64,000 nucleotides of DNA from Thermococcus siculi (GTDB lineage Archaea > Methanobacteriota_B > Thermococci > Thermococcales > Thermococcaceae): positions 186,001 to 250,000 of the forward strand of contig NZ_CP015103.1 in the NCBI RefSeq assembly GCF_002214505.1. The letters run 5' to 3'. The notes beneath the pieces are model-generated. The model was not told where the DNA came from. It was given only the letters and a program-made list of their open reading frames with translations, and ran no database searches. Below, in pieces: positions 14,524 through 26,076 of this stretch. The position numbers and the translations under genes were made by a program. Numbering within the stretch: the stretch's first letter is position 1; the number at the start of each line of letters is the position of its first letter.

Positions 14524-15672
14524 TCAGAGCCACCTGGGCTTGAGGCCGGCCCACATCCTCATCTTCTCGTGGGCTATGATGCGCGGTATGTTGCCCATCT
14601 CCTTCGGTCCTGGGTTCTTCATGTAGAAGGCGTTGACCTCGTAGACGGTGCCGAACTCCTTCCTCTCGACCGCCATCTTCCCGAGCCTGACGAGGTCGAC
14701 GAGGAGACCAGCGAGGGCCGGGCTGTCGTTTATCCTGCCGGTGATGACGATCTCGTCGTGGGCACCGTTGAATGAAACGTACTCGATGTGCATGGCTATG
14801 AACTTCTTGTCGCCGAGCGGCTCGAGGAAGCCGGTGGGCTTGATGTAGTGCGGGGCGTCGTAGCCGAGCAGGTCCTTGACAACGGAACTCTTGGTGAACT
14901 CCTTGCTCCTGTTCCTCTCCTTGTCGGTGAGGGCCAGGAAATCGTTGTTGCCGCCGATGTTGAACTGGGCTATGTCGAGGACGTAGCGGTTCCTCTGGGC
15001 TAGGTGGCTGAGGACGTCGGCGGTTAGCGGTGTCGCACCGGTGGCACCGTCGTCGCCGAAGATGACGAGGTTGCTCTCCTTCGCCAGCTCAACGAAGACC
15101 GGGTCGTTGGCTATCAGCGTCGGAATCGCGTTGACGAAGGCCGCTCCTCCAACCTCCTTCGCGTATTTAGCGGCCGCGTAGACGTAGACCTGGGTCGCGG
15201 TGAGCCTGTCCCTGTTGTCCTCCTCGATGGCCTTCTCAAGCTCCTCCCTGCTCTCGAAGGGGACGAAGGCCTCGGTGGTGCACACGTTGACGAAGACATC
15301 CGGCTTAAGCTCCTTCCACTCGTTGACGAGGTGCTCGACTGCTTCCTTAAGGGTCATCTCGTCGTCGAGGCCGGTCGCCTCAATCGGAAGGTTCCTGAGG
15401 CTCCTCAGGTGGATTCCCTTCCTCACGGTTACTCCCTTAAGGCTCTCCGGAGCCTCCGGGTCGTAGGCCTTAACCACCTCGTAGAGGTCCTTTCCTACCT
15501 TGGAAGCGTCGACGTCGTAGGAGCCGACTATCTCTATATCCTTGATTTTAATTGGGAGTTCGTCCGCAAGCGGAACTCCGTAAGGCTCCAGCTTTCCAGC
15601 CTTTATCTTCTCCAGCCCGCTCGCGAAGATGCTGGCAACGTATCCCTGCCCGAGTATGACAACCTTCACCAT
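14524..15672 (-). CDS. ino1: myo-Inositol-1-phosphate synthase
   Basis: About 382 residues; converts glucose 6-phosphate to L-myo-inositol 1-phosphate using NAD. The N-terminal Rossmann strand VKVVILGQGYVASIF, the NVCTTEAF and NAIPT segments, GDDGATGATPLTADVL and the family-specific QFNIGGNNDF are intact. In Thermococcales the product feeds di-myo-inositol phosphate, a heat and salt stress solute, consistent with the bifunctional gene just upstream. The ATG at 15672 has AAGGAGGTGG before it. It appears to have its own promoter (TATTTAA, minus strand, near 15713-15720) with an inverted repeat between TATA and start site. Confidence 0.95.
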   Translation of the reverse strand: MVKVVILGQGYVASIFASGLEKIKAGKLEPYGVPLADELPIKIKDIEIVGSYDVDASKVGKDLYEVVKAYDPEAPESLKGVTVRKGIHLRSLRNLPIEATGLDDEMTLKEAVEHLVNEWKELKPDVFVNVCTTEAFVPFESREELEKAIEEDNRDRLTATQVYVYAAAKYAKEVGGAAFVNAIPTLIANDPVFVELAKESNLVIFGDDGATGATPLTADVLSHLAQRNRYVLDIAQFNIGGNNDFLALTDKERNRSKEFTKSSVVKDLLGYDAPHYIKPTGFLEPLGDKKFIAMHIEYVSFNGAHDEIVITGRINDSPALAGLLVDLVRLGKMAVERKEFGTVYEVNAFYMKNPGPKEMGNIPRIIAHEKMRMWAGLKPRWL

Positions 15673-15693
15673 CTTATCCACCTCCTTGGTTGT

Positions 15694-15709
15694 TGTAAGA
15701 TATTTTACA
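15694..15709. promoter_or_regulatory. Inverted repeat in the inositol synthase promoter
   Basis: TGTAAGAT-ATTTTACA, a 16-base inverted repeat with one mismatched pair. On the minus strand the sequence CTATTTAAC at 15713-15721 looks like the TATA box for ino1, and the start site would be near 15690, so the repeat lies between TATA and start: a typical archaeal repressor position. No binding protein can be named. Confidence 0.5.
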
Positions 15710-15713
15710 GCAG

Positions 15714-17033
15714 TTAAATAGTTTTCGGCTGCGAAACTTTTTTGGAAATGAAATAGAGTGTGAGCGCCACGCGAAGGTTGGTCAGCAGGGCCAGCAGGAG
15801 GAACAGCCCTTTGATGGAGGGTTCAACCGGATAGAGCAGGAAGAGCATCGTCAGGAATATCCTCTCGTCTCTCTTCCCGGGAAGCTTTCTCAGGACGGGC
15901 ACTTCGACGTAGGCGTCCCTTCCGAAGGCAGCCTTGAACCTCTCGGTTGAATAGCTGACCATCACCGAGCCGAGGAGGGCTAGGAGCGCCATGAAGTACC
16001 AGAGGGACCCGCTGAGGGTAGCGTAAGCGAGGAGTGCCAGGAAGGTCCCGTCAACGTATCTATCGAGGATGGAATCGGTGTAGCCGCCGAGTTTGCTCGT
16101 CCTGAGCTGGGCCCTGGCCAGTTCCCCGTCGACCCCGTCGAGAATTGAGCTGAGCTGGTAGAGTATTCCGGCCAGGGGGAGGCTCACGAGTGTCAGCAGA
16201 GCCGAGAGTATTCCGAGGGCGAAGGTAAACACGGTCATCTGATTGGGCGTTACCCTCTCGACGAGGAGATAACTTATTCTGGTTGATATCTTCCTGTTCA
16301 GGTGCCTGCTGATGAAGCCGTCCCCCGTTCCCTTAACGGATGTGAAAACAAGCATTTTCCTGGCTCTCTTGAGGTCGTTGGGAGTGTCAACGTCCGTCCA
16401 GCCGAGGCCGTCTACGAAGGTCACCGGGACTCTCGCCCTCTCGATAACCTCGCTGAGGGAATAATCCCCGTTTTTCTCCCTTTCCAGAACCGCCGTAATC
16501 TCGAAGATTCCCTCATCGAGCACGAAGAAGCCCGTATCGACCGCGTCCCACCCTTTAAGGTTTTTGCCAATCGAGTCGATCCGTCCGTCCCTCACCCTCA
16601 CCTTGGTGGCCTCGCCGATTTCCACCCATTTCGGCTTCCTGTCCGCTATCAGGCCGTCCCCCCCGATGGCCTTCTCCACAAAGGCCTCGCTGTAGACGTG
16701 GTCGCTCATCACCAGGACGAATCTCCCTGAAACCCTTCCCCTCGCCAGGTGTAGCGAATGGCCGTTTCCCTTCTCCGGCTCGGGGTTGATGACCAGCTCG
16801 GCGTTGAATCCGTGTCTTCCGATGAAATCCCTGTAGAGCGGTCCATAGCGCTCGTTCGTCACCACAACGAACCTCTCGACGCCGTTTCTCTTGAGCAAAG
16901 TCATTGTGCGGTAGAGTATCTCCCTTCCGGCTACCTTCACGAGTCCCTTGGGCTTCCCTCCCATCCTGGTTCCGAGGCCGGCCGCGAGAACCACCGCAGT
17001 TCTTGGCACCACTGGCATCACCTTTTTAAGCAC
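15714..17033 (-). CDS. Bifunctional inositol-1-phosphate cytidylyltransferase / DIP-phosphate synthase
   Basis: A 439-residue fusion of two enzymes of di-myo-inositol phosphate synthesis. Residues about 10-230 are a sugar-nucleotidyltransferase (AAGLGTRMGGKPKGLVKV pyrophosphorylase loop, MSDHVY metal site, GWTDVDTPNDL) that makes CDP-inositol. Residues about 240-439 form a membrane CDP-alcohol phosphatidyltransferase with the motif DGVDGELARAQLRTSKLGGYTDSILDRYVD. This fusion is established for hyperthermophiles such as Archaeoglobus and Thermococcales. Start is GTG 17033 (GAGGT seven bases before) or ATG 17018. A TTTAAATT box near 17080-17088 serves as promoter, divergent from dph6. Confidence 0.92.
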   Translation of the reverse strand: MLKKVMPVVPRTAVVLAAGLGTRMGGKPKGLVKVAGREILYRTMTLLKRNGVERFVVVTNERYGPLYRDFIGRHGFNAELVINPEPEKGNGHSLHLARGRVSGRFVLVMSDHVYSEAFVEKAIGGDGLIADRKPKWVEIGEATKVRVRDGRIDSIGKNLKGWDAVDTGFFVLDEGIFEITAVLEREKNGDYSLSEVIERARVPVTFVDGLGWTDVDTPNDLKRARKMLVFTSVKGTGDGFISRHLNRKISTRISYLLVERVTPNQMTVFTFALGILSALLTLVSLPLAGILYQLSSILDGVDGELARAQLRTSKLGGYTDSILDRYVDGTFLALLAYATLSGSLWYFMALLALLGSVMVSYSTERFKAAFGRDAYVEVPVLRKLPGKRDERIFLTMLFLLYPVEPSIKGLFLLLALLTNLRVALTLYFISKKVSQPKTI

Positions 17034-17104
17034 TCCCTCGACCTCTGGTTAGAAGGCCGACATTAAATTAACTCAAGGTAATTTAAACTTTTCGGGTGAG
17101 CGAG

Positions 17105-17779
17105 ATGCGCGTTGCCGTCCTCTATTCAGGTGGGAAGGACTCGAACTACGCCCTCTACTGGGCTTTGAAGAACGGCTTCGAGGTGAAGTACCTCATTAGT
17201 ATGGTGAGCGAGAGCGACGAGAGCTACATGTATCACGTCCCCAACATACACCTGACCGAGCTTCAGGCGAGAGCTGTTGGAATTCCCCTCATCAAGGGCT
17301 TCACGAGCGGCGAGAAGGAGAAAGAGGTAGAGGACATGAAGGCCGTCCTTGAAGGCCTCAGGATCGACGGAGTCGTGGCCGGCGCTTTGGCGAGCGAGTA
17401 TCAGAAGCAGAGGGTCGACAGGGTGGCGAAAGAGCTTGGGATAGAGAGCTTTGCCCCGGCCTGGCACAGGAACCCTGTGGACTACATGCGGGAAATAATC
17501 GGCATCTTCGACGTCGTGATAGTCGGAACCGCCGCCTACGGCCTCGACCAGAGCTGGCTCGGCAGGAGGATAGACGAGAAGGCCCTGGGGGAACTCATGA
17601 GGCTCAACGAGAAGTACAGAGTTCACGTTGCCGGCGAGGGCGGTGAGTTCGAGACCTTCGTTCGTGATGCGCCGTTCTTCAGGGCCAGGATCGTCTTCGA
17701 CGAGGTCGAGAAGAAGTGGAACGAGTGCAGCTATTCGGGCGTTCTGGAGGTTAAGAAGGCCCATTTAGATCCAAAGTAA
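17105..17779 (+). CDS. dph6: Diphthine--ammonia ligase (Dph6 family)
   Basis: A 224-residue PP-loop ATPase that performs the last amidation step in forming diphthamide on elongation factor 2. The P-loop-like [10 protein letters not shown] is at residues about 8-17, and the family signature EGGEFETFV is near the C-terminus. GSxxS-like and AEYQ-type segments ([13 protein letters not shown]) bind the substrate tail. The ATG at 17105 follows GGTGAG by four bases; the GTG at 17096 belongs to the ribosome binding site. It marks the left conserved border of the foreign-looking cassette. Confidence 0.92.
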
Positions 17780-17806: not shown

Positions 17807-17825
17807 AAAGAGCAATGCGAAACAT

Positions 17826-17836
17826 TCTTATATTTT
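17826..17836 (+). promoter_or_regulatory. TATA box of the helicase-nuclease cassette
   Basis: TCTTATATTTT is an A/T-rich TATA element centred about 33 bases before the chosen start codon at 17864. Transcription would start near 17855, leaving a short leader that holds the GGGTG ribosome binding site. The cassette thus seems to have its own promoter. Confidence 0.6.
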
Positions 17837-17863: not shown

Positions 17864-20269
17864 ATGGGCGATAAGGAAGTCCAAATTCATCAAAGTTCAG
17901 GCCTCCAAAAAGCCTTGGTTGATGCTTTCACAAGTTATGTTGAGTTCGGAATTTACTTTGGCCCCCCTGATAAAGAATTCCGTAGGATTCTCCTTAATGC
18001 AGGAGTGCCCCTGAAAAACATCCGTAACTGGGGACATGCACTAATCCACGACGAGTATCATCTTGGGGATGTGCTGTTGGGGCTTATCAAATCCCTTGAG
18101 GAGGTTGGATACAAGCATCCCCTCAAGAGGATATCAAAAGCAGAGAGGAAGGGAAAGATACCCGCACCGTATTCTGAGTTCCTTGTCTTATGGGGAAGAC
18201 TTTCCACTCAAGGAGAGGGGGTACCAATTGGGCTGCTTATAAGTGCGGGAAGCGCCGAGGAGGCAATGGCTACATATTACAACGAGGTTCTCAAGGATGC
18301 ATTCGACTCAGGAGTGTTTGAGAGGCTGTGGGACTCTTACATGGATAATAGAGAGCTGAATTACATCTCCCTTGAAGGGCACGAAAAATATGAAGATGCC
18401 CTGAAGAGCATCCCAAGAAATGATCGTAAAAAGCTGATGAAACTAAACTACGAGGGCAAGAGCTTTCCCTCGTTCCCCGGAGTAATAAAGGGACCTCGCT
18501 TAGCTGTCTTCCCGAACTCGAGGAAGTTCTACTCCCTGCCCCTATTCGGAGAGGGGTGGAACAGGGACAAGAGCATTCTAAGGATTCTGCTAAGACATAA
18601 GGACAAACCGCAGGTTCTTGAGTTTCTACGGCATTTCGAGCTCGAGTGGCTGGAGTTGGAGGATCTAGAGGCTCTTTTTGACCTTCGGGAGGAGGTCTTT
18701 AACAGGATTAGAAAACGGCTTATTCAGATCTCGAAGGAGCGCAAGTTGGGTAAACTCCGAGCAATTCCCCTTTATGTAAAGCACTTTGGAACTAAAAGGA
18801 TAGGCTCAATTCGCCCCACCAGAGTTGACAGAGTAAGCAGGACAACGTACCTTGTTACCACTTTTAACTGGGGAGGTGGATGGCCAGAAATCAGAAACCT
18901 TCAGGAATTGCTCACGGTTATGATGGCAAACTCCTACTACCTCCCAAAGACAATTGAAGTCCTTAAACAGGATATTGTGCTTTCCCCACGCTCCAGATCA
19001 AGGAAAATCGAGGAATGGGGGAGCGTCATCAAGGCAACGTTCGACTCAGTTATCCTGTATGGGCTCATGAGAGGCATCGTTAGAGTGGACGGACTCGACA
19101 TTTCGAAAGGGCATATAGTATTCTTAAATTTCCTGAACACCGACAATAGGAACACAGTCGTTCACGACTATTACTATCACCTCTTGGACGGGATAGAAGG
19201 AATGGATTTGGTTTACGGCACCGAGGAAAGAACCCGAGTAAACGTTCAGAACTTTAACCGGGACGTATATCCATACACGCCGGTTCAAAACGAGGAGGCA
19301 CTGTTCCTCCATGAAAAGATGCCAGAGAAAAAACGCCAGAAGCTCACTCCCCATCTTCTATACGAATTCGAAGACGGTACAGGGGGAGTGGTCTACAGAC
19401 TCGACACATCAAAGGGGAGAAAAGATCCCTCCACGGTTTGGTACGTTGGTGGTTCAAAACTGAAGGCCTACGAAAGGCATCTAGACAAACACTGGATCCT
19501 GGGGTATCTCTCACAGAATAGGGAGGAATACTATGCCTCCATGTCACTGAGAAACACTTCCACAGCGGGCTATCTTCTCTCAATCGAGGGCAGGGACGTT
19601 GGGACACACCTCAAGGTTTACGCCCATGGGCTCTTTGCAAGATCCGTCTATTCTGGTGAGGAGTCGAGCTACTACCTCAGGCTCCTGAAAACTTCAGTGT
19701 ATGGCCAAGTGGGTGGTAAGAGAGTTAGGCTCATCCCGGGAAAGATATTGTACAGGAGAGACAACCCAAAGGGCGCCCTTAACAGCCATCCCATGATATT
19801 TAATGACCTCATGAATGCAGTAGGGACGGAGGGCATTCATCTAGTTCACATCCAGAACCTTAAGAACTCAGATATCGCGGGTTTCCTCAATGACCTTCCT
19901 CCGTCCGTTATTATGGTAGACTGGGACGGGCTGGTCTTTTCAAGGGAAGAATTCGATAGATCCATGGGGATCAAAAGGAACTACCGCTCTTGGCTGGCAG
20001 TGCTTGAGTTCGAGGGACACGGCGCCAGGGTCTTTGTGACGAAGGATCCACAGGAGAGTCGCGAATCCCGCATCTACAGGCATCCCCTCATGATGATATT
20101 CTCGGAGAACGTCCTTTCCGATGAGGAGATGCTTTTCATTCTCGGACTGGCGGATGAAAAAGGAGGGGTAAGCTTTGCTGGGACGAAACGCCTGTTCCAC
20201 ACCCCATACCCCGACACTTCACGGAAGGTCATCCGGCCGTCCCTGCTCCTAGGAGGTGCCGCCGAATGA
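17864..20269 (+). CDS. Orphan 801-residue protein, first gene of a two-gene cassette
   Basis: I do not recognise this protein. It is soluble (no signal peptide or membrane segment), about 801 residues, rich in aromatic and basic residues, especially arginine and lysine, as in nucleic-acid-binding proteins. The middle contains repeated short hydrophobic strands (HIVFLNFLNTDNRNTVVHD; LLYEFEDGTGGVVYRLDTSK), and near the C-terminus a buried-looking strand IMVDWDGLVF with two acids. No Walker motif, zinc ribbon or clear nuclease triad is visible. Start ATG 17864 has GGGTG six bases upstream. Codon use is more A/T-rich than the neighbours. It overlaps the helicase gene by ATGA, so the two products are made together and probably act together. 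Confidence 0.85.
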   Translation: MGDKEVQIHQSSGLQKALVDAFTSYVEFGIYFGPPDKEFRRILLNAGVPLKNIRNWGHALIHDEYHLGDVLLGLIKSLEEVGYKHPLKRISKAERKGKIPAPYSEFLVLWGRLSTQGEGVPIGLLISAGSAEEAMATYYNEVLKDAFDSGVFERLWDSYMDNRELNYISLEGHEKYEDALKSIPRNDRKKLMKLNYEGKSFPSFPGVIKGPRLAVFPNSRKFYSLPLFGEGWNRDKSILRILLRHKDKPQVLEFLRHFELEWLELEDLEALFDLREEVFNRIRKRLIQISKERKLGKLRAIPLYVKHFGTKRIGSIRPTRVDRVSRTTYLVTTFNWGGGWPEIRNLQELLTVMMANSYYLPKTIEVLKQDIVLSPRSRSRKIEEWGSVIKATFDSVILYGLMRGIVRVDGLDISKGHIVFLNFLNTDNRNTVVHDYYYHLLDGIEGMDLVYGTEERTRVNVQNFNRDVYPYTPVQNEEALFLHEKMPEKKRQKLTPHLLYEFEDGTGGVVYRLDTSKGRKDPSTVWYVGGSKLKAYERHLDKHWILGYLSQNREEYYASMSLRNTSTAGYLLSIEGRDVGTHLKVYAHGLFARSVYSGEESSYYLRLLKTSVYGQVGGKRVRLIPGKILYRRDNPKGALNSHPMIFNDLMNAVGTEGIHLVHIQNLKNSDIAGFLNDLPPSVIMVDWDGLVFSREEFDRSMGIKRNYRSWLAVLEFEGHGARVFVTKDPQESRESRIYRHPLMMIFSENVLSDEEMLFILGLADEKGGVSFAGTKRLFHTPYPDTSRKVIRPSLLLGGAAE

Positions 20270-23200
20270 AAGAGAGTTCCCCGGCGGTTCTCTATGGGGA
20301 GGCCTTTGAGCTAGGGATGAAGGCGGGACTTGCATCCTGCGCCTACCAGCTGCCCGAGGGATACGATGTCGAGGATTTCGAGGACGCCTTAGTAGAAGGG
20401 GATACAGACCTCTTGGAGAGGGCCAGAGAAATCGCCATGGGTGCTCTGGACAGGTACAATTATATCCTTGAAGAAAACTTAAGCCACGAAGAGAGGATTT
20501 CGAGAATCGTAGAAGTCTTCAGGGAAAAACAGAAAGAGAGGGCCGTTAAGTTCTCCATCGAGGAATCCAGTCTGAGGGATACTGACGTGGTCAACATAAT
20601 CTCTCTCCTCCAGATGGGGCACAGAACGGGAAGTATCTTGAGTAAGAAATACGAAAAGTTCCTCATAGAGGCTCCGGTGGGTTACTCCAACGGTTATTTG
20701 TACCCGGATTTCATAGCGTTCGGCGGGAAGACTCCAGTGGCCATAGGAGACTTCAAAGTGCTTTTTGGGTACTTTGATGCAGACCTTTCAAACGTCGCCT
20801 GGAGCGTTAGTTTTGAGACCTATTCAATGGAGGAGCTACTAACAAGGGCGAAGAGAATAAGTGAATACAGCTTTAAAACTCTATACAACGCCGCCGGAAA
20901 GTACGCAAAAGTCCTCAACTACGCAAGAAAATTCGACAGGTTCCCTGTTGAAGCCGTTGTCGTCTTCCCGCTGGGAATTTCAGTTTTGGAACTGAAGTCG
21001 CCCGCGGACATCGGGGAATACTATTCAAAGCTGAGGGAGTTGCTGGAAAAAATGTTGCCCGAATCTTTCCTCGAACGGGCCAGGGATATTCTCAACGGTT
21101 TTTACACCGGGAACGCCTTCATTAAGCACGACGATGATACTGGAACATTCTACTTCCACAGGAGAAGTGGTGATGAAGGAATACCACTAAGATTCGGGAG
21201 GAAAGCTCCTCGGGGGAACAGGGGGCGCATCAAGGCTCCTAAACCCGTGTACACTGGAATCGATACGAGAAGAGCCAAACACGGAAGCGACCTCTTGGAA
21301 TACCTAACCAGGTTTGATCTCATCATCGATGCCTCGGACCAGGGGGTCGGTAAGAACTACGTTTTTCTCGAGTACGCCAGAAAGGTTGTTGGGGAGGGTG
21401 GGAAGGTTCTCTTCATCTCCCCGAGACTCCACATCCTCAGGGAAACAGAGAGAAAACTCAAGGAAAAAGGTGTAACAGCAGTTTTCATATCCTCGAGTGC
21501 CAAGAGGACACTGAGAAGGAGGAAAACCTACATCGAGACCCTCGAAGCCCTCGGTGCAGGAGACCACCGGGCGTCTCGGAAGCTTATGAGAGAACTGCGT
21601 GGGGATGGGCCGGAGGCTATACTCGCCACGTCTCAGGCTTTCCAATACCTAAACGAAGGAAGTTGGGAGCAGATACTCCGGTACGCTGACCTCGTGGTGT
21701 TTGACGAGTTTACGAACTCGGGCGCGGGAGCCGTTGAGGGCATACTTGGTTTTCTCAGAAAATTCTCCAAGAATCCCGGTGGAACGAAGGTGATGATACT
21801 TGACGCTTCCATGACGCACCCGGATCTCTACATCCCCGCCCTCAAGAGGCACATCTTCGGCCGCGGGATGGTTTACACTCCCCTAGAAGTTCTTATCTCA
21901 AGGGTCGAGGATGATCCAGTTGTCAGAACGTTTAGGGTAAACTCAATAGAAGCCCTCTACTACCGCATACACCTCGACTTCCCTCTCGAGTATTACGCCA
22001 TGGGTCTTACAGTCCACTCCCACATCCCAGACTGGAACGCCCTGATCGCTGGTGTGGGAGAGATTTTAAAGGAGGGTGGAGCGGATTTTGAAAAACTCCT
22101 GGACGAAGGAAAGGTCGTTTTCTATGTGGACAACCGCCTCTACGTTGATGACCTGACAGAGTTTCTGGTGGAGAAAGGGTACACCGCAATTCCTGTCCAT
22201 TCGGGCATCGGGATATCCTCCGAGGAATTAAAGGGCAACGTCGTTGGAACGTCGAGCCTCGCCTTCGGCGTAAACCTCGAGAATCATGATGCCCTCGTCT
22301 TCATGTCTCCCTATCCTGGCTACAGATACGACAACAACGCCTACGGGATAGAGCTCTATCGTCAGGTGATAAAAAGGCTCAGAGGGGACGAGGCCAACAG
22401 GAAGCACATTGCTTTCGTCGCCCTGACTGGGGGTGAAGGAGAGTACTCGGAAGGGATTGCCTACCTCTCCATGGTCGGTTTTATCCGGAACCTGCTGCTC
22501 AACAGAGACTTCCACGTGAGGCCCCCCATGCTCTCGGGAAAGGGACGCTTTTTCAGATCGTACGGCAGGGGTCTAAAACTAGGAGAGAACAGGGAAGTAC
22601 CGTTCGAGGTCTTTATGCGGGATTACTACCCCCAGCTCAAGCGCCTGTTTATAGCCTCTGGATTCTCCCTCAAGCCCGTCTTCAGGTTTGAGTTCGGACT
22701 AAGCGGTGACTGGGAGCTGCCGGTTCCTTTCAGGGTACATAGAATACTCGGCGAGCACATCACAAGGGACTTCACTCTCGAAGTCACGCCCCTGAAGGTC
22801 CAATTCGACCACGCTGAGCGTTTTAGAGAGGTTTTAATGGACAAGAAGTACCGAAAGAACGTGGAGCTCTTAAGAAGCCTGATTCCGGGGGTTGAAGAGT
22901 ACCTCCCCTCAAAGAACGAGTACGAGCTCGCAAAGAAACTTGAAAAGGCCCTCCGCCCCAGTTACATCTTGGCCGGGTACTCCTCGATCTTGATGGTGCC
23001 CTTCCTTTATCCCCGTCATATTAAAGAAATCCCCTACGGTATAGAATCTCCACTCAAAAGGTTGTTCTCAGGAGACCCTAAGTACACTGAGATTCCGGTC
23101 AAGGTCATAGATAAGGACAGGGGTGTTGAGAACTTTGGCATACTTGCCATACATCCCGCCTTTGGGATGACCACCCACAGGGGAGATATCCCAGTTCAGG

Positions 23201-23295
23201 AAAAGCTGAAGATTATGCTGGAGGAAGAACGCCTTCGGAAGAACCGCCTCTACCTTCCGAACGTGTGGAAAGGATACGACTGGATAAAGGTGTGA
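20266..23295 (+). CDS. SF2 helicase with N-terminal PD-(D/E)XK nuclease-like domain
   Basis: A 1009-residue protein. Residues about 130-240 contain YPDFIAF (P147, D148) followed by AIGDFKV (D162, K164), the spacing of a PD-(D/E)XK nuclease. Residues about 350-710 carry SF2 helicase motifs: I, DQGVGKN (358-364); Ia, LFISPR; II, VVFDEFT (D480, E481); III, ILDASMTH; IV, VVFYVDN; V, GTSSLAFGVNLEN; VI, RQVIKRLRGDE. Motif I has Asn where Thr/Ser is usual, an oddity. The C-terminal 300 residues are unassigned. Its start overlaps the orphan gene upstream (ATGA). Helicase plus nuclease plus large partner is the style of DNA defence or replication-interference systems; the DEFT/LDAS motif pair also recalls herpes-type origin-binding helicases. 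Function is inferred. Confidence 0.85.
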   Translation: MKESSPAVLYGEAFELGMKAGLASCAYQLPEGYDVEDFEDALVEGDTDLLERAREIAMGALDRYNYILEENLSHEERISRIVEVFREKQKERAVKFSIEESSLRDTDVVNIISLLQMGHRTGSILSKKYEKFLIEAPVGYSNGYLYPDFIAFGGKTPVAIGDFKVLFGYFDADLSNVAWSVSFETYSMEELLTRAKRISEYSFKTLYNAAGKYAKVLNYARKFDRFPVEAVVVFPLGISVLELKSPADIGEYYSKLRELLEKMLPESFLERARDILNGFYTGNAFIKHDDDTGTFYFHRRSGDEGIPLRFGRKAPRGNRGRIKAPKPVYTGIDTRRAKHGSDLLEYLTRFDLIIDASDQGVGKNYVFLEYARKVVGEGGKVLFISPRLHILRETERKLKEKGVTAVFISSSAKRTLRRRKTYIETLEALGAGDHRASRKLMRELRGDGPEAILATSQAFQYLNEGSWEQILRYADLVVFDEFTNSGAGAVEGILGFLRKFSKNPGGTKVMILDASMTHPDLYIPALKRHIFGRGMVYTPLEVLISRVEDDPVVRTFRVNSIEALYYRIHLDFPLEYYAMGLTVHSHIPDWNALIAGVGEILKEGGADFEKLLDEGKVVFYVDNRLYVDDLTEFLVEKGYTAIPVHSGIGISSEELKGNVVGTSSLAFGVNLENHDALVFMSPYPGYRYDNNAYGIELYRQVIKRLRGDEANRKHIAFVALTGGEGEYSEGIAYLSMVGFIRNLLLNRDFHVRPPMLSGKGRFFRSYGRGLKLGENREVPFEVFMRDYYPQLKRLFIASGFSLKPVFRFEFGLSGDWELPVPFRVHRILGEHITRDFTLEVTPLKVQFDHAERFREVLMDKKYRKNVELLRSLIPGVEEYLPSKNEYELAKKLEKALRPSYILAGYSSILMVPFLYPRHIKEIPYGIESPLKRLFSGDPKYTEIPVKVIDKDRGVENFGILAIHPAFGMTTHRGDIPVQEKLKIMLEEERLRKNRLYLPNVWKGYDWIKV

Positions 23296-23307: not shown

Positions 23308-25905
23308 TCAATCGCTCCTCACGTCCAGCCCGAACCACACCTTCGAGCAACCGCCTGATACCCCACAGACGTCAAAATCCAGCGACCAGTACTTGCTCGG
23401 AATCCCCGAGGTGACGTCCCAGTCGAAGTAGTCGTCGTCGAAGACTATCGTTATCCCAACGCTACCCATCGGGTCATCGTCGTTGCCCCACTTTCCAGCA
23501 TCCTCTTCCCAGCCGGAGTACTCCATGTAGAGGAAGGGAATCCTAGCGTCGTCGCGTTCGAGCATGGCTAAGTCAGGCTTCAGGGAGAGCTTGTCCCCGC
23601 CGATGTGCTTGTGGAAAATCTTCTGAGCGGAGCAGGGCTGGCGGTTGAAGGTCGGCCCCTCGCTTGAGCTGACCGGATAGGAGTAGGCGTAGCCGGATGG
23701 AACCAAAACCTCAACCTCGACGTTGTGCAGACCCTCCGTCTCCCCGAGGCTCTCGAAGCCCGCACAGGCCCTCGCGTAGTAGTAATACTCGTCGTCCCCA
23801 ATTTCCGTGTCCTTCGTGAACTCGACGGAGAGCAGTTCGGCCTTCAGGTTGTTGTAGCGGAGCAGCCTCGGTACTTCAACCTCGTAGATGACGTAGGTAA
23901 CGCGCATGTTGCCGTCCTTCGATTCTGCAGTAACGCGGTAGCCCCTCGTGAAGTCGGCTTCGTTGGGATGGAGCACGTAGACGGCATCCCCTATCCCGTC
24001 CGGCTCCGCTCCGGCCAGCCAGTTGAAGACGCTACCCCAAAGCTCGTCCCCGCTCTGGCCCGTCGCTAGCCAGTTCATCCATACCGCACCCCTGTATGCG
24101 TAGTCTGCCACCGTTCCAATCTCCCCGGTCGCCATTCCGACGGCGAAGTCCGTTAGGAACCCGGCGGTTTTTGTAACGTAGCTTCCCGGCTCGTCCCTGT
24201 CCCAGCCTGCCGTTTCGAGGACTATAATCTTGTACTTCTCCGCATCGTCCATCGGCATCGCGAGGAGTGGGTAGCCGTTTATGAACGCATAGCCCAGACT
24301 TCCCGTTGCCATCTCGTCGTGGTAGAGGAGCCTGCTGTTGTCCTCCGCTTCGACCCAGTGGCCAACCGGGTAGCCGAAGGTGTAGAGAGAGCTGTGGTTT
24401 ATTGGGTAGACCTTCCCATCGGGCCAGGTCATCCCGTAGGCCCACGAGGAGAGCTGTATCTCGCCCTCCGCGTAATCTCCGTTCTCCTTTACGAAGACGT
24501 CTTCAACAACGACCACGAGGTAGCGGTCAACGTCCTTCTCGATGTTCATTCCCTCGCTTGCGTCAACCCAGAGGTTGCTCTTTGCCGGGAAGCGGTCGAT
24601 CCAGTTCGTCATCCAGAAACGGAACTTCCTCCACGGGACGAGGCTGTAGAAGTTTTCTATCCTAAGGCTGACCTTCTTTCCGAGCTGGGTATCCTCAACG
24701 GTTACGTTCCCTTCCCTGAAGACACTTCCCGAGGAATCCTTAAGCTCATAGTTGCCCTCTCTAACCTCGAGTATCCAGTCGGCCGTACCATCGTCGCTGC
24801 TGTCGATGAAGCCGGTAAACGGGAGCCAGTCATCTTCCGTCAGATAAAACTCCAGGGTCAGGTCGTAGTCGCTGCTCATTGCCCTGATGCTTACCGGTTC
24901 GCCATCGATACCGAAGAAGTCGCTGGTATAGTAGTCTATCCTTCCCTCCATTGCCTTTATCACGAAGCTCTCCTTCGAGGGGTAGTTGAATGTCTGGAGC
25001 TTGGAACTCATCGGAACGGCTTCCACACTCATGTAGGTCTTCTCCGGGAATATCGAGGAGAAGTTCTCGATGCTGAAGCTCGCCGAGGAGCCTCTGAGGG
25101 TAACCTTTCCCTCCTGGAGCTTCACCAGTCCGTTTCCGGTAACTTCGTAGAGCGTGAAGCTCCCCTGACTTATCCCGCCGTAGATGTGGACCTCCCAGCG
25201 CTTCCCGAATTCCTTCCCCTCGCTCAGCCTCATCACGGTTGGCTCGTAGGTTACCTTCTTCCCGGTTACGGGATCCATGATGAAGGGCATGTGTATGTAC
25301 TCCCCGAGGAGGCTCTCGTTCCTGAAGTGGAGCGTTAAGGCTACGCTTTTGCCCGGCTCGGTCGAGGAAGTTATGAGGCTGACCCATTCGATGATGTTCC
25401 TCTCTCCTGGAACGTCCGCCATCGAACTCAACGGGCCTACGTAGTTGAGGTTCGGCGCGCTTATCGGGACAAGCTTGAGAACCGGCTGAAGCGTTATGTT
25501 CAGAACTACATCCTCTGGCAGTGAAAAGCCCGGACCACTCCCTTCGATTGTCTCGTTGTCCTCACAGCCGGAATCCTCATCCATATCGTCGGTGCATACA
25601 GGCAAACCGTCCTCGTCGAGCTGGACGCTCCCGTTCGGCGTTGGAGTAGCGGTTACGGTCTCCGTGCTAGTCTCGGTGCTGGTTTGGGTAACCGTTTCGG
25701 TGATGGTTCCGGTCGTGGTCGTCGTCTCGGTGTTTGTATCCGTCACTCCTCCGGTGGAAGTGCTCTCGGTCGTTCCAGTCTCTGAGGGAGTTTCACTTGT
25801 CGTTTGGCCCGCTCCAGTAGATGTTGGACCACTCCCGATGCACCCGCTGATGAGGACTAATGAAGCCAGGAGAATAAAAATCACAACGCGATAGGTTCTT
25901 CTCAT
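23308..25905 (-). CDS. Large secreted lipoprotein with Thr/Ser-rich stalk
   Basis: About 865 residues. Signal peptide RRTYRVVIFILLASLVLISGC with lipobox ISGC places it on the outer face of the membrane as a lipoprotein. Residues about 25-95 are a Thr/Ser/Glu/Gly stalk, probably glycosylated. The rest is a beta-rich exterior domain with an internal duplication: segments ending FSIENFSSIFPEKTYM and LRIENFYSLVPWRKFRF are related. Several cysteines (C..C near residues 108-119, and four near the end) may form disulfides. No family or ligand is recognised. ATG 25905 has GGAGG seven bases upstream. It is divergent from the ABC exporter genes. Confidence 0.8.
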   Translation of the reverse strand: MRRTYRVVIFILLASLVLISGCIGSGPTSTGAGQTTSETPSETGTTESTSTGGVTDTNTETTTTTGTITETVTQTSTETSTETVTATPTPNGSVQLDEDGLPVCTDDMDEDSGCEDNETIEGSGPGFSLPEDVVLNITLQPVLKLVPISAPNLNYVGPLSSMADVPGERNIIEWVSLITSSTEPGKSVALTLHFRNESLLGEYIHMPFIMDPVTGKKVTYEPTVMRLSEGKEFGKRWEVHIYGGISQGSFTLYEVTGNGLVKLQEGKVTLRGSSASFSIENFSSIFPEKTYMSVEAVPMSSKLQTFNYPSKESFVIKAMEGRIDYYTSDFFGIDGEPVSIRAMSSDYDLTLEFYLTEDDWLPFTGFIDSSDDGTADWILEVREGNYELKDSSGSVFREGNVTVEDTQLGKKVSLRIENFYSLVPWRKFRFWMTNWIDRFPAKSNLWVDASEGMNIEKDVDRYLVVVVEDVFVKENGDYAEGEIQLSSWAYGMTWPDGKVYPINHSSLYTFGYPVGHWVEAEDNSRLLYHDEMATGSLGYAFINGYPLLAMPMDDAEKYKIIVLETAGWDRDEPGSYVTKTAGFLTDFAVGMATGEIGTVADYAYRGAVWMNWLATGQSGDELWGSVFNWLAGAEPDGIGDAVYVLHPNEADFTRGYRVTAESKDGNMRVTYVIYEVEVPRLLRYNNLKAELLSVEFTKDTEIGDDEYYYYARACAGFESLGETEGLHNVEVEVLVPSGYAYSYPVSSSEGPTFNRQPCSAQKIFHKHIGGDKLSLKPDLAMLERDDARIPFLYMEYSGWEEDAGKWGNDDDPMGSVGITIVFDDDYFDWDVTSGIPSKYWSLDFDVCGVSGGCSKVWFGLDVRSD

Positions 25906-26076
25906 CACGATGCCTCCGGCCCAAACCCGCGCCAGAAAAGGAAATCGGAGGGCGTATGGGGGCTTGGATTTTATACAGTTTTGTCCCCCATTTTATTTAA
26001 GGGTTTCTTCGGGGACTCGTCACTCGGGAATGGGCAAAGTTTATTAATCGCCTGAATTATTATTGTCGGTGGTATA

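Follow-up and report, generated by a model that had tools for sequence, protein, structure and literature searches.

The window analysed, a 64,000-nucleotide stretch of the Thermococcus siculi genome, contains two large open reading frames, here termed genes A and B, positioned between dph6 and a lipoprotein-like gene. The tetranucleotide ATGA at 20266-20269 is common to the end of gene A and the start of gene B. The locus, as read from the sequence, is laid out as follows:

17096-17779, plus strand: dph6, the left flank (Pfam Diphthami_syn_2, E 6.7e-86)
17818-17823, plus strand: BRE-like CGAAAC, 5′ of the TATA-like element
17827-17836, plus strand: TATA-like CTTATATTTT, about 28 bp 5′ of the gene A ATG; putative promoter
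17864-20269, plus strand: gene A, an open reading frame of 801 amino acids; predicted divergent Argonaute/PIWI-fold protein
20266-23295, plus strand: gene B, an open reading frame of 1009 amino acids; predicted nuclease-helicase
23308-25908, minus strand: lipoprotein-like gene, the right flank, convergent with gene B and with a lipoprotein-like start

The initial annotation of this DNA had described two large genes of these sizes, in this order and with this overlap, flanked by dph6 and a lipoprotein gene, and this description agrees with the open reading frames, the Pfam match and the start of the downstream gene. It had also given the pair a TATA box of its own; the TATA-like element is indeed present, and CTTATATT is kept at the matching position 5′ of gene A in the two relatives that carry the pair at the same site (G001 and G011). 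The G+C content of gene A is 0.49 and that of gene B 0.51, versus 0.556 for the window, and the corresponding GC3 values are 0.57 and 0.63, versus 0.74-0.83 for the neighbouring genes. Close to the cassette, at 14524-17033, Pfam matches reveal an inositol-1-phosphate synthase-like gene and, after it, a gene for a bifunctional NTP transferase/CDP-alcohol phosphatidyltransferase, consistent with synthesis of the thermoprotectant di-myo-inositol phosphate.

Gene B is the more readily interpreted of the two proteins. Three regions are distinguished:

20578-20994, plus strand: PD-(D/E)XK-like nuclease core, residues 105-243, with P147-D148...D162-F-K164
21259-22431, plus strand: SF2 helicase, residues 332-722, with GVGKN, FDEFTNSG, LDASMT, GTSSLAFGVNL and RQVIKRLRG
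22501-23292, plus strand: C-terminal region, residues 746-1009, conserved; model confidence mostly below 50

The sequence YPD148FI...GD162FK164 (PD148-X13-D162-F-K164; motif residues 146-164) is invariant in all eight gene B homologues, and the N-terminal core shows an alpha-beta-beta-beta-alpha-beta order in the predicted model. Since the PD...DFK motif lies within such a fold, the region is assigned as a putative PD-(D/E)XK nuclease core; sequence family and PDB sequence searches gave no match to it. The helicase is recognised by Pfam ResIII in seven of the eight members (best E 8.4e-8), and a PDB fold search with the predicted model returns SF2 helicases, among them Mfd, HrpA and MrfA, with E values down to 2.8e-10. 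Walker A, a DEAD-like motif II and motifs III, V and VI are present; in motif I, GxGK precedes N or T, and most copies have DE as motif II, G065 and G067 having EE. The protein contains a single cysteine and thus no DinG-type Fe-S cluster. Both the PD-(D/E)XK-like region and the full set of SF2 motifs had been noted in the initial annotation, and both readings stand.

Gene A and its homologues gave no credible match in Pfam, NCBIfam, PADLOC or PDB sequence searches, and none of the eight members matched Pfam Piwi. The AlphaFold model, built on an alignment of 8 sequences (pLDDT 78, pTM 0.78), was compared with 350,542 PDB chains. Argonautes, whether long, short, eukaryotic or archaeal, made up all of the best 50 matches listed, with E values of 1.2e-4 to 1.2e-2 and probabilities up to 0.99. 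The best were the short Argonautes of SPARTA systems (E 1.2e-4, probability 0.99), and the range extends to the Argonautes of A. aeolicus and P. furiosus. Chance would hardly be expected to return one superfamily 50 times. Superposition on these structures is poor (TM 0.15-0.26 by query length and 0.17-0.35 by target, rmsd mostly 10-20 Å), so that the case for an Argonaute depends on local resemblance in fold, seen with a single predicted model. Profile-profile comparison (hhalign) with sets of 7 and later 19 classical archaeal pAgos, full-length or domain by domain, returned chance scores, and a fold search against viral models produced weak matches only, some of them RNase H-like. We consider it very probable that gene A has an Argonaute-like fold. 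In the profile searches and structure prediction suggested by the initial annotation, gene B was placed with ResIII and SF2 helicases, and the term "orphan" for gene A holds at the level of sequence, PADLOC included, and does not hold at the level of predicted fold. A replication or primase role for gene A was dropped when the fold search returned Argonautes.

Two regions were delimited in the gene A model:

18950-19369, plus strand: MID-like region, residues 363-502, tentatively assigned from the strand and helix order of the model
19388-20266, plus strand: PIWI/RNase H-like region, residues 509-801, based on model secondary structure, fold matches and conservation

The order of strands and helices follows that of a pAgo MID domain and then a PIWI-like RNase H fold. 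Within the MID-like region, HDYYYHLL (434-441) and NVQN (460-463) are invariant, and a secondary-structure-guided alignment puts them in the predicted pocket, where pAgos carry YxxxK...Q. The canonical YxxxK guide-end motif was not found in gene A. Near the C-terminus, PYPDxSRKxIRPSLLL tentatively resembles in placement the PAPVHYAHK segment of pAgos. No complete DEDX set of conserved acids fits gene A in either register considered, the register being uncertain without coordinates. The DEDX catalytic tetrad has been lost in many Argonaute/PIWI members. Since a complete set cannot be placed, gene A is probably a binder and not a cutter.

The pair is rare. Gene A occurs in 8 of the 115 genomes of the phylum, and its profile recovered the same eight from 396 genomes in 216 genera, in whole-genome searches that left out bacteria; two other archaeal phyla (23 and 152 genomes) yielded no matches, and weak matches of the gene A profile in G318, G509 and G090 are short and at chance level. 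The gene B profile found the same eight genomes plus one fragment (G112). Pattern-based scans of public genome and viral contigs with both proteins gave no matches and say nothing on absence, because known relatives were also missed. In all eight genomes gene A adjoins and overlaps gene B, by 4 bp in most copies, 17 bp in G080 and G081, and 8 bp in G103. The copies occupy three chromosomal sites: between dph6 and the lipoprotein gene (three genomes: the window, G001 and G011), 3′ of infB (four genomes: G080 and G081, and, in another genus, G065 and G067), and beside a proC-like gene (G103). The prospect, raised in the initial annotation, of one locus conserved in all Thermococcales is therefore not what the genomes present. 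Unoccupied sites are also seen: the lipoprotein gene ends about 12 bp from dph6 in G005 and G012 and about 40 bp from it in G004 and G017, and a trm-like gene lies 25 bp after infB in G012. Neighbours of the eight copies are mostly ordinary chromosomal genes, and the survey for defence islands that had been proposed recognised no cluster of other defence genes around them.

Several features of these sites were recorded in passing. The spot 3′ of infB (L077-L097) varies in Thermococcus, holding a trm-like gene, an AAA-type ATPase (MSRQKFIDRERELEFLERAY...), a lipoprotein-like gene or the cassette. That 3′ of dph6 (L032-L052) varies as well: G009 and G014 have a transporter-like gene there, G015 an antitoxin/PIN-like pair, and others ABC transporter genes. 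Cassette-adjacent infB genes (L016:11530-14967, L018:12295-15720) have about 1140 codons versus 600, the long frame running through an apparent intein at the P-loop (DHGKCLLPSET...). Close to the cassette of G065, L017:2843-4972 encodes a protein of 709 residues that includes an Mrr restriction-endonuclease domain (PF04471, 3.5e-15); this protein is missing at the equivalent place in the close relative G067.

Comparison of the G001 and G011 copies over a 20-kb stretch reveals about 65-90% identity in its outer parts and mostly 90-100% over the roughly 9 kb around the cassette. Gene B itself is 99% identical between the two, with a dS of 0.03 versus 0.21 for gene A. Such an identity peak, centred on the cassette, points to its recent exchange between the two species by homologous recombination. 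The G011 gene B (L014:7419-10364) has a clean in-frame 84-bp deletion that removes Walker A and shares 99% identity with the G001 copy elsewhere; judged by this deletion, it is a natural helicase-null allele. In G112 gene B is reduced to its final ~45 residues (L115:769-909). This remnant adjoins a proC-like gene, which is also the neighbour of the intact G103 copy, and has a tRNA-like sequence on its opposite side. Values of dN/dS for A and B are mostly 0.06-0.24 between relatives, indicative of purifying selection; given these low values and the retention of the pair in eight genomes, both genes are real. The two proteins are 67-74% identical between relatives, versus 88% for the neighbouring dph6. 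Quick divergence, patchiness, transfer and decay would together be typical of defence genes.

Two bacterial systems resemble the cassette most closely. In DdmDE, found in Vibrio cholerae and other bacteria, the inactive Argonaute DdmE finds plasmids by means of a DNA guide and recruits the helicase-nuclease DdmD (PMC12409362); like the cassette, it is a two-gene operon for an inactive Argonaute-like protein and an SF2 helicase/PD-(D/E)XK fusion. ApsAB, from Escherichia coli and other bacteria, combines a nuclease/helicase with a divergent Argonaute-like protein, removes plasmids, and has an Argonaute-like partner that is likewise detectable by structure prediction only (PMC11096173). The Argonaute-like fold predicted for gene A therefore brings the cassette close to DdmDE and ApsAB: in each, an Argonaute-like protein, in our case by predicted fold, stands next to one protein combining helicase and PD-(D/E)XK domains. 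There are also differences. DdmD has its helicase at the N-terminus and its nuclease at the C-terminus, and the ApsA nuclease is also C-terminal, whereas the gene B nuclease is N-terminal and precedes the helicase. Gene order is apparently reversed with respect to DdmDE, where the helicase gene comes first. ApsB keeps Y-x3-K...Q...K, to which only Q462 of gene A offers a conserved counterpart in a secondary-structure-guided alignment. ApsAB is reported from bacteria, whereas the cassette is archaeal. PADLOC and PDB profile searches gave no DdmD, DdmE, ApsA or ApsB match for either protein, although the presence of these families in the libraries is unconfirmed and the comparison was not head-to-head. 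Because of the nuclease end, the gene order, the ApsB MID motif and the lack of detected sequence similarity, the cassette is kept apart from both systems, even though it looks as if it would work like them.

Other Argonaute systems are more distant. SPARTA, SPARDA and SPARSA share with the cassette an inactive Argonaute and a co-encoded effector, and short Argonautes are the best structural matches of gene A, but their effectors are TIR, SIR2 or DREN-type with APAZ and not a nuclease-helicase, and gene A, at ~800 residues, has an N-terminal region of its own, unlike the short systems. Classical archaeal Argonautes such as PfAgo share the predicted MID-PIWI fold; they match Pfam Piwi and carry GxD and RDG motifs, whereas gene A has neither. 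They too are sporadic, with Pfam Piwi matches (L056-L062) in 7 of the 115 phylum genomes; G011 has a classical pAgo in addition to the cassette.

We propose that genes A and B form a two-gene guided DNA-interference system, and assign this reading a probability of 0.68. Gene A would be an Argonaute/PIWI-fold protein with degenerate catalysis; a short guide of nucleic acid would sit in its MID-like pocket and pair with invading plasmid or virus DNA. Gene A would then recruit gene B, the helicase of which would load on the opened DNA and unwind it, while the N-terminal PD-(D/E)XK domain would cut the invader. What the data show is the strict pairing and coupling of the genes, the helicase motifs and fold, the nuclease motif, the best predicted fold of gene A and the patchy, mobile distribution; guide binding, target, recruitment, cleavage and the defence role itself we infer. 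Counting against the proposal are the empty sequence and profile searches for an Argonaute relationship, the poor superposition, the missing YxxxK motif and the lack of recognised defence genes clustered around the copies. The initial annotation had suggested a defence or plasmid-interference module not described before, and distribution, mobility, decay and predicted fold, the last of these a model, lend support to this idea; what it had missed was the Argonaute-like partner.

Among other explanations, we regard as unlikely a guide-independent, restriction-like system, akin to type I or type IV restriction lacking a methylase. In it, gene B would supply both motor and nuclease activity, and gene A would serve as a subunit for structure or DNA recognition, its RNase H/PIWI-like fold having lost the ability to bind guides. 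The nuclease-helicase architecture would suit it, as would the absence of a methyltransferase gene from the cassette and of a canonical guide 5′-end motif and a complete catalytic tetrad from gene A; yet the best structural matches of gene A cover MID plus PIWI and not the RNase H fold alone, and its invariant HDYYYHLL/NVQN cluster sits at the predicted guide pocket. That the cassette is a divergent archaeal branch of PIWI-RE with nuclease and helicase fused in one gene is very improbable. PIWI-RE systems do unite the same three activities in one operon, a PIWI-fold protein accompanying a helicase and an endonuclease-fold enzyme, but they are described as bacterial and have three genes in the order REase, DinG, PIWI, with a DinG-type helicase (PMC3702460), whereas the cassette has two genes with A first. 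The single cysteine of gene B does not accord with such a helicase, and the pPIWI-RE domains of Pfam found no match in the cassette proteins. Since gene order, helicase type and Pfam domains all differ, the cassette is not PIWI-RE as defined.

Equally to be weighed is a host pair for DNA repair or replication restart with no link to defence. Helicases and nucleases commonly act together in repair, and both the purifying selection and the mostly ordinary neighbours would be expected of such genes; most Thermococcales, however, do without the cassette, A and B diverge faster than dph6, and copies decay and move, which makes this explanation highly doubtful. Patchy presence, differing composition and insertion between convergent genes could also indicate a module for replication or maintenance that a mobile element left behind in the chromosome, an origin which the initial annotation had offered as an option. 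It finds little favour with the data, and we hold it to be extremely improbable: next to the eight copies we recognised neither an integrase nor a Rep or other element gene, and searches of plasmid, phage and viral collections, among them gene B protein searches of plasmids and phages, gave no match, these being run without a positive control.

If the guided-interference reading is right, the system may have evolved in archaea independently of DdmDE and ApsAB. A separate PIWI-fold family, the opposite order of nuclease and helicase, confinement to Thermococcales as sampled, a hyperthermophilic setting and possibly a guide-end chemistry in which HDYYYH replaces YxxxK would be its marks; we treat this as a serious possibility while stopping short of favouring it. 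Plasmid defence by an Argonaute with a helicase-nuclease is known from bacteria, and in the open-access literature we found no archaeal report of it; searches there on archaeal DdmDE and on an Argonaute with a helicase in Thermococcus gave no description of this cassette.

Genetic tools exist for Thermococcus kodakarensis and Pyrococcus furiosus. The system is directly testable with shuttle plasmids as the challenge, the proteins should be heat-stable, and the natural Walker A deletion and the empty sites are ready comparisons. A thermostable nuclease-helicase, if guided, would have practical uses. The proposed system, if true, would add a new branch to the PIWI superfamily, and its permuted domains and the absence of a detectable sequence relation would suggest that the same solution arose more than once.
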